Virus record (IMG/VR): IMGVR_UViG_3300033553_000478 | Location: 1-64,000 of that record | Source of the DNA: a virus | Length of the DNA: 64,000 nucleotides | Direction: 5' to 3' (one strand) | Shown: positions 24,698 through 51,692 of the stretch, in pieces | Numbering within the stretch: the stretch's first letter is position 1 | Layout: every line of letters starts with the position of its first letter | The notes under the pieces: generated by a model | What the model saw: the letters and a program-made list of their open reading frames with translations, nothing else | Databases searched by the model: none | What the model was told of the DNA's origin: nothing | Position numbers and translations under genes: made by a program

Positions 24698-24948
24698 TAG
24701 ATAGATTTGTATTTAATTTTCTTATTTCCTTTAATGTGCTTGACAAAGTACCCGCTTGAGCTGGGTGCATCGTACATAGTTTTCCATTGTCCTGCAGATA
24801 CAGGAATATAACTGTAAACACTATCATTCGTTTTGAAATGAACATATAATGTTTGTGCTGCAGGGTTGTAAACTACCTCTTCAATAAGAGAGCTTTCAGG
24901 TGTCTTTTTACGTGGCCAGTCAGGGTTCACGGGTACTTTATGGTCCAT
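24697..24948 (-). CDS. KTSC domain protein
   Basis: The 83-aa protein matches the KTSC domain pattern: SSLIEEVVYNPAAQTLYVHF near the N-terminus, a Tyr-x-Tyr strand (VYSYIPVSAGQW), then SSSGYFVKHIKG, with the Lys, Thr/Ser and Cys-site region at the end. KTSC proteins are small beta domains, sometimes next to nucleic-acid enzymes; function unknown. Start codon overlaps the GroEL stop. Confidence 0.75.
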   Translation of the reverse strand: MDHKVPVNPDWPRKKTPESSLIEEVVYNPAAQTLYVHFKTNDSVYSYIPVSAGQWKTMYDAPSSSGYFVKHIKGNKKIKYKSI

Positions 24949-26597
24949 TAATAACCAGGGGGATTTTGAAATTTCTTATATACTTCAGGATCTACGATAA
25001 CACATTCCGTAGTAAGTAGCATTCCGGCTATAGAGGCAGCACTTTCCAGCGCAACTCTTGTAACCTTTACAGGATCCATAATGCCGGAAGCGATCATATC
25101 ATCGCAAACTTTCCCGGTTCTGGCATCATAACCAGCACTGAAATTATCTGCAATTTTCCTGAAATCCATTTCCTCTAAATCTACTCCAACATTTTCAATG
25201 ATCATTCCGAAAGGTTCGCGTATAGCTCTAAGAACAATATTTGCTCCATACATTTTACTGGCATTTCTTTCTTTGGTGTCAAACTCAATAGTCGAAAGAG
25301 TTAATAATGCAGCTCCACCTCCAGGAATAATCCCTTCTTCATTTGCGGACTTTACCGCGTACAAAGCATCCTGAATCCTTCCTTGTTTCTCGATATATTC
25401 AGAATCGGAACGAGCGCCTATATTGATATAAGCAATTCCGTCTGATATCCTGGAGATACGAGTCTGCAATTGTGACTTCTCAAACTGCTGAGTAGTATTT
25501 TTCAAAACTTCCCGTAAATGATCAGCACGATCGGCCATTCTTTTCTGAATAACCTCATCCTCTTCATCGGAAACTCCAAAGGCACCTTTGATAGAAGTTA
25601 CCTGTTCCTGAACAGTAACTTCTTCAGACTGGGGAAGGTAATTGAAAATCTCTGCCGTAGGAAGATCTTCAAACTGTGTTCCTTCATTTTCAATGAAAGG
25701 ATCCTTACCCAATACAGCTCCTAAATCCCGAAGTAATTCCTCAGTTTCATTTCCGAAACCTGGGGCCCTTACTACACAACATTTGAAACCAGCTCTGGTA
25801 ACATTGTAGATAAGCATATCCTGAATGAGATCGTCAATGCCTGGGCAAATGATCAGTAAAGCTTTTTGAGTTCTACCACATTCCATTATCAGATGTTCCA
25901 AATTTGGCTCCATTTTGGAAAGCTTCTTATTGGTCATAAACACATAAGGCTCTTCCAAAATACAAGTTTCCTCTTTGTGGTTGTTTATGTAATATCTGGA
26001 ACGGTACCCGGTAGGTAAGGTCATACCTTCGATACTTGTCATATGCGTGACATAATCATTCGACCGCTTAATGTTTACAATTCCTTGTCTTCCTGCTACC
26101 TTAAAAGCTCTGGTCACAATATCTGCAGCTTCCTCATCATTGTTGGAAGCAACCAGGGCAACCTTTTTGAGCATTTCCAAATCATTCTCAACCGGCTTTG
26201 CTTTTTCAAGAAGCTGTTGAACGATTAATTCTACCGCTTCGTCGATACCCTTCTTAATATCGAGTAGGTTCAGTTCCTCAGGGAAATTTAATCCCTGTTG
26301 CAATATAGCTTCAGCAATAACAGTGGCGGTGGTAGTTCCATCTCCGGCTTTATTGTCGGTATTGTTGGCGATATCCTGCAGCGACTCAATGGCCACCATC
26401 TCAATAGGATCATCAGACCAAACCTGTCCGGCAACCGTTACTCCATCCTTGGTTGAGAATGGGCGGCTTTCCTGTCCGTTTCTAATTAAAACATTACGGC
26501 CAGATGGTCCTAATGTTACTTTTACTGCTCGGGCTATTTTATTGGCGCCCGCCAATAGGTTTTGGCGGGCCTCCAATGAATACATTGTTTTTTTCAT
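24948..26597 (-). CDS. groL: Phage-encoded GroEL chaperonin (HSP60)
   Basis: A near full-length group I chaperonin of 549 aa. Hallmarks: VKVTLGPSGRNVLI at 26-39, KDGVTVA near 50, GDGTTTAT at 85-92 containing the catalytic Asp, the APGFGN motif in the apical domain, EEGIIPGGGAAL around 418-428, and GIMDPVKVTRVALESAAS near the end. It lacks the usual C-terminal GGM repeat, ending instead in KKFQNPPGY. It should fold phage proteins such as the capsid. It is followed by KTSC and packaging genes; a GroES-like gene lies 0.9 kb upstream in the same transcript. Confidence 0.95.
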   Translation of the reverse strand: MKKTMYSLEARQNLLAGANKIARAVKVTLGPSGRNVLIRNGQESRPFSTKDGVTVAGQVWSDDPIEMVAIESLQDIANNTDNKAGDGTTTATVIAEAILQQGLNFPEELNLLDIKKGIDEAVELIVQQLLEKAKPVENDLEMLKKVALVASNNDEEAADIVTRAFKVAGRQGIVNIKRSNDYVTHMTSIEGMTLPTGYRSRYYINNHKEETCILEEPYVFMTNKKLSKMEPNLEHLIMECGRTQKALLIICPGIDDLIQDMLIYNVTRAGFKCCVVRAPGFGNETEELLRDLGAVLGKDPFIENEGTQFEDLPTAEIFNYLPQSEEVTVQEQVTSIKGAFGVSDEEDEVIQKRMADRADHLREVLKNTTQQFEKSQLQTRISRISDGIAYINIGARSDSEYIEKQGRIQDALYAVKSANEEGIIPGGGAALLTLSTIEFDTKERNASKMYGANIVLRAIREPFGMIIENVGVDLEEMDFRKIADNFSAGYDARTGKVCDDMIASGIMDPVKVTRVALESAASIAGMLLTTECVIVDPEVYKKFQNPPGY

Positions 26598-45278: not shown

Positions 45279-46339
45279 CGCCAATACATCATTATAGTAA
45301 GCTTGAGGTAATGGAGCAATTCGAGCCATTTAATTTCAATGGCATATCGAAAGAAGATTTTGAAAAGTTCCTCGAGAAGTTTGATGTAATGCTAAAGAAC
45401 AGTGGCTACGATCTGGATGATGATATAGAGAATATAGACTGCTTCAGTGACTTCTACAAATATCTTGGGCAATTCGCAAATAAGCTGAATTGTCATTATG
45501 ATATTGAGTATGAAGAATTGATGAGGTTCACTGGTGATTTACCTATTCAAGAAACAAACATTCAATCTATAAATACATATTGGGTTGAGAAGCTGATAGA
45601 TATTTTACCGCCAGACATAGCGCTGTATTTGGATTACACTTGTTTTGTAATCCTTCAGAGAGCTACCAAAGTTATGCATTATGATTACCACCTTGCGGAA
45701 GAACCTCTGGAGTATAAGTACGATGAAGAGGAAGAATATGCCGATCAAATACAGATGTGGCATAAGCTTAATAGTTACACTATTGTCCTGTACAAGAAGT
45801 TTATCAAGGACAAAAAAACCATAGTTTCACCTTGCCCGGTTATGAAAGGCAGGCCAGAGAAGGAGCAGCAAATAATTAAGATCTGCAAGTTCCTGGTGAA
45901 TCATAATGAATATATGGCACTTCAATTTATGCCGGTAAAATTCTACTTGCAGTGTTGCGGAGAGTCGCATGACGAAGATAGTGAGGAAATGAGCCATATA
46001 GCTACACAGCTTATTGATGGCGACGGAGAGTATGCCGTAGATGCATATTACAATGCTTATTACGTGCTGACTTATGATAACGGGAACAGCTCATTAATAG
46101 ATGATTATTGTGAGTTCCTGAACCAGGCATATCAAATGAATGAATGGTACCACGAAATGAGCAAGATTGTCAAGGTCAATCACAAGAATGAATTTATTCC
46201 TGTAAACAAGAAAGCCGCCAGAACAGTTGTAAAATATCACGACTCATTTGGCGATTTAAACGAACTTTTAAAAGCATATTACGATGAGAGAGTTGGTGCA
46301 AACAATGAAGCCTGTATCGCTGTTGACAGTGTACGATAG
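45176..46339 (+). CDS. PRTRC system protein F candidate
   Basis: 387 aa, helical, with a basic disordered start (MRSNNKKSAEKSPKPKPAET) and a folded body containing IDILPPDIALYLDYTCFVIL and a long acidic segment. Position between protein C and protein B, and the length, match PRTRC F. I could not verify individual signature residues, so the call leans on synteny. No membrane segment. Confidence 0.6.
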   Translation: MRSNNKKSAEKSPKPKPAETSRSYTNITEYLSHLAPIHHYSKLEVMEQFEPFNFNGISKEDFEKFLEKFDVMLKNSGYDLDDDIENIDCFSDFYKYLGQFANKLNCHYDIEYEELMRFTGDLPIQETNIQSINTYWVEKLIDILPPDIALYLDYTCFVILQRATKVMHYDYHLAEEPLEYKYDEEEEYADQIQMWHKLNSYTIVLYKKFIKDKKTIVSPCPVMKGRPEKEQQIIKICKFLVNHNEYMALQFMPVKFYLQCCGESHDEDSEEMSHIATQLIDGDGEYAVDAYYNAYYVLTYDNGNSSLIDDYCEFLNQAYQMNEWYHEMSKIVKVNHKNEFIPVNKKAARTVVKYHDSFGDLNELLKAYYDERVGANNEACIAVDSVR

Positions 46340-46907
46340 TGGCTATATAGATTACCGAGATGTATTGGAAGCGGGAAAGGTTTCAGCTTCCAGACCATTA
46401 TACCAGGAAACCATAAATGATATTTTCGCAAATCTGAGAGGTGATCATAACCTTAAAAGATTTGAAGGTGTCATTCCAAACAAAATGGTTTATGTGGATC
46501 CAATGAGAGATCTATTTGTCTGGACCAGAAAAGCGGAAGTCCGGGAACTTCTACATACAACAAAGAAACATTCCGGAAAATATGCTATTCCTACTCTTGT
46601 ATTTCGCATTGAGAAGGGCAGTGTGAGTGTTGTGGCCATAAAGAAATTGGCTATCAATTCTCCTGTATATATTCCCCCGTTTACAAACACAGCAAATGGC
46701 GATGTTTGTATGGGTTCCGCTTCTCTGAAAACCGAGACTTGCGACTGCATTGAAGATCTGGTTGAATATGCCGAAAACCAATTCTACAATTCCTATTTCA
46801 CTCATTCCCCGACTGAGTACCAGCTTTTGGGAAAAGGTAAATCTACCTTCCCCAAAAAGGAACTGAAGGCAATGGGTATTAACCTAAAGCAATTTATAAA
46901 TGGATAG
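46305..46907 (+). CDS. PRTRC system protein B, E2-like
   Basis: 200 aa from ATG 46305; ATG 46284 would add 7 residues, and both overlap protein F. The protein has PLYQETINDIFANLRGD, VDPMRDLFVWTRKAEVREL, and the conserved core PVYIPPFTNTANGDVCMGSA followed by FYNSYFTH. PRTRC B is the prokaryotic E2 family D (Prok-E2_D). Cys135 in DVCMGSA is the likely thioester cysteine and His167 in YFTH a conserved partner. It overlaps the E1-like gene by 8 bp. Confidence 0.83.
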   Translation: MKPVSLLTVYDSGYIDYRDVLEAGKVSASRPLYQETINDIFANLRGDHNLKRFEGVIPNKMVYVDPMRDLFVWTRKAEVRELLHTTKKHSGKYAIPTLVFRIEKGSVSVVAIKKLAINSPVYIPPFTNTANGDVCMGSASLKTETCDCIEDLVEYAENQFYNSYFTHSPTEYQLLGKGKSTFPKKELKAMGINLKQFING

Positions 46908-47682
46908 CTTGAAAGTTGATCCGTATTTAATAAACGGACAGCACAGAATAACTGTGCTCGTAGTGGGAGCTGGTGGAACTGGTGGAAAGGTACTTACCAA
47001 GCTTATAGCTTTACACGAAGCTTTGACAAGAATGGACCATCCTGGTCTATACGTTACAATGGTGGATCCTGACATAGTAGAGGATCACAATGTAGGCCGG
47101 CAATCAAATTTCAGTGCTGCAGATGTAGGCTACTACAAAGCTGATGCGCTGATTAGCAAAGTGAATGCCGCTTTCGGATATGATTGGGATTGTGAGAATG
47201 TACCATATAGCAATGCTCACGCTGCCAACATAGTATTTTCCTGTGTAGATAATGCTGAAGCCAGAGCCAAAATATTGGATGCATTTTTCAAAAGGCAGCA
47301 GATGTATGATACCAGGAAAGGCTTTTACATATTTGATTGCGGTAACGCCCGGGATTATGGCCAAGTCATTCTGACTGACCAGAAGCACACCCTGAAGCAT
47401 ATTGGTGATATTGTCCCGGATTGGGATAAGCAAGATACTGTAGAGCAGCAGGGAGAATCCTGTAGCTATGCTGAAAGCTTACGAAAGCAAGACCTATTCA
47501 TTAATGATTGGGTTGCTCTGTATGCAGTGAATCTCTTCAAAGAATTACTATTCAAAAAGGAGATTGATTACCAAGGAGTATTTTTCAATACTGCAGATTT
47601 TGATGCAGTTAAAATCAAGATTAACAATGGCAGTAAGAAACGGAGAAAGACTCGTAACAAATTGGTGGACCGAAAAAACTGA
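46900..47682 (+). CDS. PRTRC system ThiF-family protein, E1-like
   Basis: 260 aa. Rossmann ATP-binding loop VVGAGGTGG at 21-29, the E1 signature VDPDIVEDHNVGRQSNF with acidic and Arg adenylation residues near 55-71, CVDNAEAR near 113, and the PRTRC ThiF motif ESCSYAESLRKQDLFINDW with a candidate cysteine near 189. ThiF/MoeB/E1 enzymes adenylate the C-terminal glycine of ubiquitin-like proteins. A basic tail ends the protein. Overlaps protein B and the following small gene. Confidence 0.92.
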   Translation: MDSLKVDPYLINGQHRITVLVVGAGGTGGKVLTKLIALHEALTRMDHPGLYVTMVDPDIVEDHNVGRQSNFSAADVGYYKADALISKVNAAFGYDWDCENVPYSNAHAANIVFSCVDNAEARAKILDAFFKRQQMYDTRKGFYIFDCGNARDYGQVILTDQKHTLKHIGDIVPDWDKQDTVEQQGESCSYAESLRKQDLFINDWVALYAVNLFKELLFKKEIDYQGVFFNTADFDAVKIKINNGSKKRRKTRNKLVDRKN

Positions 47683-47836: not shown

Positions 47837-48091
47837 ATGGCTGAAACATTGGAAGATTTGAAGAAGCTTAAACAAGAATATGTTGAAGCTGAGGCTCAGA
47901 AGATCGTTGATTATATGGTCAAAAGAGAGCTGATTGAAACTCAGGAACAAACTTGTGATCATAGAAATTGGGATACGAAGAAACATACTCACTTCCCCGA
48001 GATAGCTGAAAGACTTAGGAAAGAATATGGGTTGCTGGTACTCAGCAAAGTTCGCCACGGCGTAACTGAATGGGATATAAGAATTAGATAA
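47837..48091 (+). CDS. Hypothetical protein, 84 aa
   Basis: Helical N-terminal half (LEDLKKLKQEYVEAEAQKIV) and a C-terminal part with KEYGLLVLSKVRHGVTEWDI. Its stop overlaps the dnaB start by one base, suggesting a helicase partner. Unknown. Confidence 0.6.
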   Translation: MAETLEDLKKLKQEYVEAEAQKIVDYMVKRELIETQEQTCDHRNWDTKKHTHFPEIAERLRKEYGLLVLSKVRHGVTEWDIRIR

Positions 48092-49545
48092 TGGATGCAG
48101 AAAATGAGGAATTTCAAATACCGCCACCACCGGTAGATATTCCTAAACCCCCACTTCCGGAAATAATATATCGGAAGGATCCTGAATATCCACCGCTTGA
48201 CAAAGGCAAAATACCGCCTCAAGCGGTAGACTTAGAGGAAGTGGTAATTGGAGCTCTTATGATTGACAAGCGGGCAGCGCCCGAGATAATGGGGTTTATG
48301 ACTCCAGATGTTTTCTATAAGAATGCACACCAAAATGCTTTTCAAGCCATACAGACCTTGTACGAGAAGGAATTACCCATCGACTTACTTACAGTCGTTG
48401 AGGAACTAAGACGTACAGGGAAGCTTGCTATTGTAGGTGGAGAGTATTATTTGATACAGCTTACTCAAAAGGTAAGTTCTGCAGCTCATATAGAATTTCA
48501 TTCTCGAATTATTTTACAGAAGTATGTACTTCGTAGAATGATACAGCTGGGAAATGTAGTCATTGAAGAAGCTTACAATCAAGATCCGGACATATTCGAT
48601 CTGATGGATAAGTTTGAAAATGATGTGCTGGATATTTCCAATACTGCCCAGAAAGGCAAAAAGGAATCCGGCCCTGCAGATCCTGGAGAGGAACTTCGAG
48701 AAAAGGTTAGACTTAAGAGAGAAGGAAAGACAATTGGATATCCTTCGGGAATTGAAGAGTTCGATAATTGGGCGGGTGGCTTCCTGAAAAGGTGGCTTTT
48801 CATATTGGGAGCCCGACCAGGTATGGGAAAGACTTCATTCATTGTTGCAGTCATATATCACTTAGCTTTCGAGAGAGGTGTAAAGGTTGCATTCTTTTCC
48901 CTTGAAATGGCAGCTATCGATATTAAGTATCGATTAGCTGCCAGGATCCTCGATATTCCATTCAGTAGAATAAATCTTGGAGAGCTCACAGATGAAGAAC
49001 TTGAAGAGGTAACTGAGATAGTATCAAAAATTGAGGACTATGGAATCAACATAATTGACAACGTAAGGAACCTCAGCAAGATTACTGTTGAAACCAAGAA
49101 GCTGAAAGAAGAAGGTTTTGAAATCTTCTTTTTGGATTATTTACAGCTGGTAGAGATATCCGGAACTTCCAAGGATTTAACTGGAGAGATGGTGATCATT
49201 ACCAGAACATTCAAATCACTTAAAAACGATTTAAACATTCCGTTCATTGCGCTATCACAGATTGACAGAATAGTGGATAAGCGGCCCGGTCATAGACCAT
49301 TAATTTCAGATCTTAAACAGGCAAGTTCTATAGAGCAGGATGCTGATATAGTAGCTTTCATTGTGAGGCCAGAGTATTATAATGAGAATAAAAGCAAGAT
49401 ACCTTTGCCACCAGGCAAACCGAATCCTGAATTTATTGCTCAGTTTATTATTGCAAAAGGAAGGAGTACCGGACTGAAAGATTTTGATATATATCTGGAT
49501 CTTTCAAAATTTATTTTGAAATCTGGTCATTCAGTACCTTTTTAA
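48091..49545 (+). CDS. dnaB: Replicative DNA helicase, DnaB-like
   Basis: 484 aa. A proline-rich start (FQIPPPPVDIPKPPLPE) precedes the DnaB N-terminal domain (EEVVIGALMIDKRAAPEIMG, GGEYYLIQLTQKVSSAAHIE) and the RecA-like motor with Walker A GARPGMGKTS near 240-249, SLEMAAIDIKYRLAAR (motif H1a), and the Walker B-like FFLDYLQLVE. Motif H4-like DLKQASSIEQDADIV follows. It forms a hexameric 5'-3' fork helicase. No primase gene was found beside it, so primase may be the host's. Confidence 0.93.
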   Translation: MDAENEEFQIPPPPVDIPKPPLPEIIYRKDPEYPPLDKGKIPPQAVDLEEVVIGALMIDKRAAPEIMGFMTPDVFYKNAHQNAFQAIQTLYEKELPIDLLTVVEELRRTGKLAIVGGEYYLIQLTQKVSSAAHIEFHSRIILQKYVLRRMIQLGNVVIEEAYNQDPDIFDLMDKFENDVLDISNTAQKGKKESGPADPGEELREKVRLKREGKTIGYPSGIEEFDNWAGGFLKRWLFILGARPGMGKTSFIVAVIYHLAFERGVKVAFFSLEMAAIDIKYRLAARILDIPFSRINLGELTDEELEEVTEIVSKIEDYGINIIDNVRNLSKITVETKKLKEEGFEIFFLDYLQLVEISGTSKDLTGEMVIITRTFKSLKNDLNIPFIALSQIDRIVDKRPGHRPLISDLKQASSIEQDADIVAFIVRPEYYNENKSKIPLPPGKPNPEFIAQFIIAKGRSTGLKDFDIYLDLSKFILKSGHSVPF

Positions 49546-50173: not shown

Positions 50174-51214
50174 ATGGAAAATTTTCAATTTACCGCCCCG
50201 GTTGGAGGCGACAGCAAGAGAATTGATGATGTTGCATTAATCCCTTCAGGGATGCGACTTTGTACGTTCTATGGACTTGCAGATCTTGGTACCCAAGACA
50301 GTAAAAACTTTGGGCCAAAACACAGATGCCAGCTGGCATTTGAATTCCCTCAAGAATTGAGGATATTTTATGAAGGTGATATTCATAAGCCTTCAGTGAT
50401 CTGGAGTGAGGAAACTTTCTCAATGGCACCAAAAGCCAATTTGAGAAAGCATTACGTTCACGGTATGCTTGGCCGTAATCTTAGTGATGAAGAAGCGGCG
50501 AAATTCAACATAGCTTCCCTATTAGGAAAGCCATTTGTTGCCACCATTTCTCATACTGCAGATGGTAAGTATGCGAACATCACTTCTATTACTCCATTGA
50601 GTGATCAGAACAGATTGATGTTTGGATTGCAGGATATGAATGTACCTGTGATCAATGATATCTTTGCATATCATATGAGCCAGGGCTTTATTAGTGAGAA
50701 CTTCAAGAAGCTTCCAAAATTCATTAGAGAAAAAATAAAAAACTCTGAGGAAGGTGAAGCTCACAAAAAGTCTGGAGGAACATTCCTTGAACCGGATCCA
50801 AGTGATTTCAAAAATGCTGGCAAAAAACTTAAGATGCTGCCTAATGCAGAGTTCACATACGAACAGTATAAAGCAGCAGAGTGGACTGACCAGATGTTGG
50901 TTGATAACGGTAAAGCAGTATGGGAAGCTCCCGTTGCTCCACCAGCTCCGGTAGGTGCACCAGCAGCTCCACAGGCACCAATCGCCCCAGCTGCTCCGGT
51001 TGCTCCACAAGCAATGCCAGCTGCACCGTCAGCAATACCACCTGCAATGCCAGCTGCTACACCGCCAGCTCCCGCATTGAATCCTCAGGACACCAATGGT
51101 AGAATTACCCTTGTACCTGAATGGAGAGGGAAGCAGTCTGTTGCTGAATGGTTAGCTTCAGGATGGACTGAGGAAGCAATGTTAGCCAAGGGCTACGCTG
51201 TTCCAGTAAAGTAG
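50174..51214 (+). CDS. SSB-like phage ssDNA-binding protein (zero-frame product)
   Basis: 346 aa. The N-terminal 150 residues (IPSGMRLCTFYGLADLGTQD, KHRCQLAFEFPQELRIFYEG, WSEETFSMAPKANLRKHYVH) form an OB-like phage domain often annotated as ssDNA-binding. A long Ala/Pro-rich linker (about 255-300) leads to a small C-terminal motif (EWRGKQSVAEWLASGWTEEA). The zero frame ends at TAG 51212, just after AAG. An acidic SSB-type tail lies in the -1 frame immediately downstream. Located with the IHF-like and helicase genes. Confidence 0.75.
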   Translation: MENFQFTAPVGGDSKRIDDVALIPSGMRLCTFYGLADLGTQDSKNFGPKHRCQLAFEFPQELRIFYEGDIHKPSVIWSEETFSMAPKANLRKHYVHGMLGRNLSDEEAAKFNIASLLGKPFVATISHTADGKYANITSITPLSDQNRLMFGLQDMNVPVINDIFAYHMSQGFISENFKKLPKFIREKIKNSEEGEAHKKSGGTFLEPDPSDFKNAGKKLKMLPNAEFTYEQYKAAEWTDQMLVDNGKAVWEAPVAPPAPVGAPAAPQAPIAPAAPVAPQAMPAAPSAIPPAMPAATPPAPALNPQDTNGRITLVPEWRGKQSVAEWLASGWTEEAMLAKGYAVPVK

Positions 51215-51348
51215 AAGGAGTAGGGGAATCAACTCAGCAGCCTACTGCTCCACCCGCACCAGCTGAGAAAATTGAAGATCAATTTCCTGCTAACTTCAGC
51301 GTGGCTCAAGACGAGCCAGATGAAGAGCACGATGATCTTCCATTCTAA
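51211..51348 (+). CDS. SSB-type acidic tail encoded in the -1 frame
   Basis: From 51211 the -1 frame reads 45 residues beginning VEGVGESTQQPTAPPAPAEK and ending DEPDEEHDDLPF, then TAA. DDLPF is the classic C-terminal tip of bacterial SSB that recruits partners. No start codon is present, so it must be joined to the upstream ORF. Its TAA overlaps the next ATG (TAATG), the standard junction in this operon. The shift point GTA-AAG-TAG allows tRNA-Lys to slip from AAG to AAA. A homopolymer sequencing error would look the same. Confidence 0.75.
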   Translation, partial: VEGVGESTQQPTAPPAPAEKIEDQFPANFSVAQDEPDEEHDDLPF

Positions 51349-51692
51349 TGCACCAGTTTATTTGTAAGGCGAAGTCCGGAGAGCCAATCCCGACTTCGCC
51401 TAATAAACTGGAACTTCTGAAAAAGCTTTTAGATCATTATGAGAAAACAAATATGTCTTTCAAGTTATCGATCGAACCTATTCAGAAGAATATAAATGAA
51501 CAGCAGGAATCTTTATACAAGGCGTTCATTTTAAAAGCAGCAAATCATTTTGGCAACACCTTCCCAGAAATGGAAAACATACTTCGAAATTTAATGCCGG
51601 AAGGTCCCAGAGAAAGGTGGAGCACTAATCAATTAGATGATTTTATAACCAAGTCCACTGCCTATTTAGGGCAGCACGGATTTCATTTTTAA
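51348..51692 (+). CDS. Hypothetical recombination-associated protein, 114 aa
   Basis: Helical protein containing NMSFKLSIEPIQKNINEQQE and a terminal motif (RWSTNQLDDFITKSTAYLGQ) faintly like NinB-type phage recombination proteins. Coupled to the SSB tail by TAATG. Weak assignment. Confidence 0.6.
   Translation: MHQFICKAKSGEPIPTSPNKLELLKKLLDHYEKTNMSFKLSIEPIQKNINEQQESLYKAFILKAANHFGNTFPEMENILRNLMPEGPRERWSTNQLDDFITKSTAYLGQHGFHF

Follow-up and report, generated by a model that had tools for sequence, protein, structure and literature searches.

In phage T7, gene 10A/10B has a −1 shift close to its end, and a small share of the protein is thereby extended at the C-terminus. Frameshifting in bacterial dnaX (tau/gamma) yields two forms of a replication protein that differ in the C-terminal region, and reversed dnaX cases are known in which the zero-frame stop directly follows the slip site (PMC5009743). 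The −1 frameshifting of IS3-family transposons uses Z_ZZN tetramers, with a 5-nt spacer in the tested IS3 construct and a downstream stem-loop or pseudoknot (PMC4066793). With the IS3 pseudoknot 5 nt downstream, the three best tetramers in E. coli ranked A_AAG > U_UUC > U_UUU, and six active tetramers gave 0.26–5.6% frameshifting (PMC4066793). Recruitment mediated by the tip of SSB proteins is well studied. Neither frameshifting in SSB genes nor natural control of the number of tip-carrying subunits was found described in the open-access literature that was searched.

The locus analyzed here very probably carries a tetramer-type signal for programmed −1 ribosomal frameshifting, from which tailless and tailed forms of an SSB-like protein would be made in a set ratio. 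The window is the whole stretch of 64,000 nt that was analyzed, taken from an 82.8-kb virus record (IMGVR_UViG_3300033553_000478). The capsid, portal, and terminase proteins match phage families, and the capsid protein weakly matches that of Azobacteroides phage ProJPt-Bp1. The phage is presumably crAss-like, an assumption drawn in part from these matches. Upstream of the SSB-like gene are DnaB and then two small genes, one of which has a DNA-binding-protein match. Downstream, the order is a 114-aa protein, a short ORF, an SF1 (Dda-like) helicase, and a putative nuclease ORF that is read as a FEN1-type nuclease. The gene order around the SSB-like gene is conserved in the relatives described below. 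The DnaB-like helicase (48091–49545, + strand) ends in ...KSGHSVPF, a PF ending that resembles the SSB tip. Elsewhere in the window are a phage-encoded GroEL-like chaperonin of 549 aa (24948–26597, − strand; NCBIfam GroEL, E 1e-127) and two genes with PRTRC system matches (46284–47682, + strand), PRTRC ThiF above the cut-off (E 1e-55) and PRTRC B below it (E 3e-15). The features of the SSB-like gene and its junction are as follows.

50174..51214, + strand: zero-frame ORF from the ORF list, 346 aa, SSB-like/NGO0469-family replication protein without the acidic tail; NF046043 match (E 6e-29) above the cut-off
50174..50803, + strand: predicted N-terminal OB-like domain, residues 1–210; AlphaFold2 model with pLDDT 86.5
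50850..50925, + strand: first small W..L..G.A module (YEQYKAAEWTDQMLVDNGKAVW), from the translation; similar in relatives
50926..51090, + strand: Pro/Ala-rich linker, from the translation
51140..51202, + strand: second W..L..G.A module (VAEWLASGWTEEAMLAKGYAV), the last conserved part 5' of the shift site
51208..51211, + strand: slip tetramer A_AAG, on which the zero-frame AAG would re-pair on AAA; the top tetramer in E. coli (PMC4066793)
51212..51214, + strand: zero-frame TAG stop, the first three bases of the 5-nt spacer (51212–51216)
51211..51348, + strand: −1 tail of 45 codons plus TAA, ending in DEEHDDLPF; homologous to the L053 tail
51217..51251, + strand: predicted stem-loop GGAGUAGGGG...CCUACUGCUCC, 5 nt 3' of the slip codon; 1.0% of random positions in the window reach its stem score
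51233..51238, + strand: CUCAGC, the loop side of a candidate pseudoknot stem 2 with 6 bp (P 0.004 against shuffles)
51262..51267, + strand: 3' half of candidate pseudoknot stem 2, GCUGAG, pairing with 51233..51238
51331..51345, + strand: acidic tip DDLPF, with synonymous-only changes across lineages
51348..51692, + strand: next gene, 114 aa, MHQFIC...; its ATG overlaps the −1 stop, and it adjoins the SSB-like gene in all six lineages
Predicted junction peptide of the shifted product: PVKVEGVGESTQQ

The zero frame at 51200–51214 reads GTT CCA GTA AAG TAG. Slippage from AAG (51209–51211) to AAA (51208–51210) opens the −1 frame, which reads from 51208 as K-VEGVGESTQQ...DEEHDDLPF* over 45 codons. 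The −1 stop TAA (51346–51348) shares a base with the next ATG at 51348 (TAATG). An earlier sequence-only reading had described the TAG directly after AAG, the 45-residue −1 tail to DDLPF, and the TAA/ATG overlap, and all of these coordinates hold. A second assembly of the window junction was searched for and not found. Decoding of the TAG as an amino acid was ruled out because the tail sits in the −1 frame and 11 of the 79 surveyed window ORFs end in TAG.

The zero-frame product is included in NCBIfam NF046043 ("phage replication initiation protein, NGO0469 family") with 100.7–102.5 bits against a curated cut-off of 75, and all 13 aligned sequences (the window protein and 12 homologues) match this family. 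The family name traces to a gonococcal prophage gene that was annotated via weak similarities (PMC1931599). Pfam assigns no family to the protein, and the Pfam SSB family (PF00436) matches neither this protein nor anything else within the record. A profile search of the SSB-like protein against the sequences of solved structures gave no match. The nearest PDB neighbors of the model of residues 1–210 are PrgE and other OB-fold ssDNA-binding proteins, as weak matches (Foldseek E 4e-3, VIA Z ≤ 6.0). The predicted fold and the tail suggest a ssDNA-binding protein despite the NGO0469 family name, and this putative OB-fold ssDNA-binding protein probably coats single-stranded DNA. Where the sequence-only reading had spoken of an SSB-like protein and of two SSB forms, the OB-like predicted fold and the gene context make the label "SSB-like" a reasonable one, but Pfam SSB is unmatched and the protein falls in NF046043 instead.

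Relatives were reached via the capsid protein and via an alignment of the SSB-like protein. When the SSB-like protein or DnaB was searched singly against viral contigs, no relatives turned up, nor did one bacterial-genome scan find any. The ingroup comprises six lineages, and the tail lies in the −1 frame in four of them (the window, L012, L051, and L053). The proteins of L012, L051, and L053 are 42–50% identical to the window protein, and the layout common to all four lineages is a zero-frame stop, a −1 tail ending in DDLPF or DPPF, and a TAATG junction. The junctions read GCG ACT TTT CAA TAG in L012 (−1 tail DEDDLPF), GCT GTT TTT CAG TAA in L051 (DPPF), and GCG TTT TTC TTA CAG GAA TAG in L053 (EDDLPF). 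The L051-type junction is identical in four metagenome assemblies (L067, L068, L069, and L070).

The zero-frame end of L052 is GDGLAF. The closest lineage, L063/L065, has no acidic tail, and its zero-frame stop runs straight into the next ATG (L063 2921–2925, L065 4029–4033); the tail is therefore not universal and is dispensable in that lineage. Outside the ingroup, zero-frame acidic ends appear in L055, L056, L057, L058, and L059, and two homologues in annotated phage records end in zero-frame xPF tips. Among 69 distant homologues, one ran off its contig and the 68 that are readable to the stop all end in xxPF in the zero frame, and therefore the tail belongs to the family. A more distant homologue, L054 (1393–2496), ends in ...EYVEGAL, with no zero-frame acidic tip and no long −1 or +1 extension. 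The concatenated tree (IQ-TREE) has the topology ((window,L065),(((L051,L012),L052),L053)), with one weak node (50%), and the shifted lineages fall on both sides of the ingroup root. The simplest reading of this tree would be one origin of the shift and two later changes.

The acidic −1 tails span 41–70 residues. The DDLPF codons of three lineages are GAT GAT CTT CCA TTC, GAT GAT TTA CCG TTC, and GAT GAC TTG CCT TTT, and all of the differences are synonymous. The segment QFPANF is common to the window and L053 tails, with two synonymous differences. In each of the four shifted lineages, no stop interrupts the −1 frame across the junction. The −1 extension thus appears, from the pattern of codon changes, to be conserved under selection in four of the six ingroup lineages.

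As slip tetramers, the window has A_AAG, L012 and L051 have U_UUU, and L053 has U_UUC, each in the correct frame before the zero-frame stop. No heptamer of the form X_XXY_YYZ was found in the junction sequences of the four shift sites. A stem-loop of 32–35 nt is predicted to start 5 nt past the slip codon in all four phages (6 nt for the main helix of L051), within the range of about 5–9 nt expected of a 3' stimulatory structure, and the stem-loops have no sequence in common. The anchored stem scores are matched by 0.5–1.2% of 3000 random window positions per lineage (Fisher P about 8e-6), and by 0.07–0.9% of random positions when downstream pairing is added; the spacers and loop limits were picked after the sequences had been inspected, so that these P values are somewhat optimistic. 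With downstream pairing included, this anchored test gives a score of zero where the genes of L063, L065, and L052 end. Shuffle z-scores of the stem-loops are −5.1 for L053, −2.8 for L012, −2.4 for L051, and −1.0 for the window (range −1.0 to −1.4), and the window stem-loop alone is not significant against shuffles (8.8% of shuffles).

The 6-bp match between the loop and downstream sequence in the window has a counterpart in L053 (CAGUCU/AGACUG, P 0.009) with nearly the same spacing. For stem 2, L012 gives a weak signal (P 0.15) and L051 gives no support (P 0.49). A pseudoknot can therefore be proposed for two, perhaps three, of the four lineages. L051 also has a further GC hairpin of very high stability (about −23 kcal/mol per 40 nt) at about 2575–2625, 50–95 nt past the slip site. 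Comparison with related phages had been suggested in the sequence-only reading as a check on its proposal of programmed −1 frameshifting. That check backs the proposal, since a −1 tail, an efficient slip tetramer, and a predicted stem-loop 5–6 nt downstream are all retained in four diverged lineages. The downstream stem-loop and candidate pseudoknot are features absent from that reading.

A base missing near the slip site, with the true gene a single ORF, would suit a stop that follows a short A run in a phage known from a single assembly. Such a sequencing or assembly error is extremely unlikely because the −1 layout is repeated in three other lineages, in one of them across four metagenome assemblies; the sites moreover lie at runs of A3, T4, and T5, each with a stem-loop at the same position. 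The T5 runs in L051 and L053 could instead allow the shifted message to be made by slippage during transcription. The window, however, has only three A before G and L012 has four T, which is short for polymerase slippage, and a stem-loop 5–6 nt past the slip codon fits ribosomal frameshifting; a transcriptional origin is accordingly given very little weight. Two further possibilities, that the tail is translated on its own as a small peptide or that it is a remnant that outlasted the appearance of the stop codon, are also very improbable. The L063/L065 lineage and L054 live without an acidic tail, as either case would allow, but no ATG, GTG, or TTG occurs before codon 31 of the window −1 tail and none at all in that of L053, which argues against separate initiation. 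The conservation of tail residues with synonymous changes and the open −1 frame across all four junctions stand against both possibilities.

The shift might instead serve mainly to regulate the downstream gene, in which case only shifted ribosomes would restart at TAATG, the ratio of the SSB-like protein to the 114-aa protein would be set in this way, and the tail would be secondary. Every one of the four shifted lineages has its −1 stop overlapping the following ATG; L052 and L063/L065, which have no shift, instead place the zero-frame stop there (TAATG; TAGTAGATG), so that coupling is kept either way. Regulation of the downstream gene leaves unexplained, however, why DDLPF is kept through synonymous changes in the −1 peptide and why distant homologues have in-frame tails of the same kind. 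As the main role of the shift it is rather unlikely, and it can operate alongside a dosing of the tail.

Programmed −1 ribosomal frameshifting would proceed as follows. While decoding AAG (51209–51211), the ribosome would pause, both because the adjacent codon is a stop and because a predicted stem-loop or pseudoknot lies 5 nt further on. Some of the ribosomes would then slip, with the Lys-tRNA (Phe-tRNA in the other lineages) re-pairing with AAA, one base upstream. The remaining ribosomes would release the putative OB-fold, SSB-like protein of 346 residues without a tail, and the slipped ones would add 45 residues ending in DDLPF, for a total of 391, and terminate directly on the ATG that starts the next gene. 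Since only shifted ribosomes would stop at the next ATG, the shift may set downstream expression, and it possibly also couples translation to the next gene. The tailless form would coat DNA, and the probably minor tailed form would recruit replication partners through its tip, which is similar to the one that binds partners in bacterial SSBs. Given the 0.26–5.6% frameshifting of such tetramers in E. coli, tailed protein may be scarce. That these phages use the shift to dose the partner-recruiting tail is moderately probable. The coats would then be mostly tailless with few tailed subunits, the same event would set expression of the next replication gene, and neighboring lineages would have moved the tip to the zero frame or lost it. 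If this is correct, these phages would let one ask, in a natural setting, how large a share of tailed subunits replication requires. They also form a series for comparison: slip motif, spacer, and structure were retained while the sequence turned over.

The SSB-like protein resembles bacterial SSB (E. coli type) and phage SSBs in its predicted OB-like fold, its acidic tip ending in PF, and a gene near DnaB and an SF1 helicase. It differs from bacterial SSB in the lack of a Pfam SSB sequence match, in two extra W..L..G.A modules, and in a tail that lies in another frame. PrgE of plasmid pCF10 is the best neighbor among solved structures (VIA Z 6.0, Foldseek probability 0.97–0.99), although the match is weak, with 8–14% identity and an rmsd >5 Å. 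The slip tetramers, the 5-nt spacer of the tested IS3 construct, and the predicted downstream structure are shared with the IS3 family, but the IS product joins a DNA-binding protein to a transposase, whereas here a replication protein would gain only an acidic tail of 41–70 residues. As in dnaX, two forms of a replication protein would differ at the C-terminus; the proteins are unrelated, and the shift in E. coli dnaX yields the short form whereas here it would yield the long form. The product of T7 gene 10A/10B is a capsid protein, and here a replication protein would be extended. The frameshift mechanism is a known one, and its use for adding the tip of a ssDNA-coating protein appears to be new within the searchable literature.
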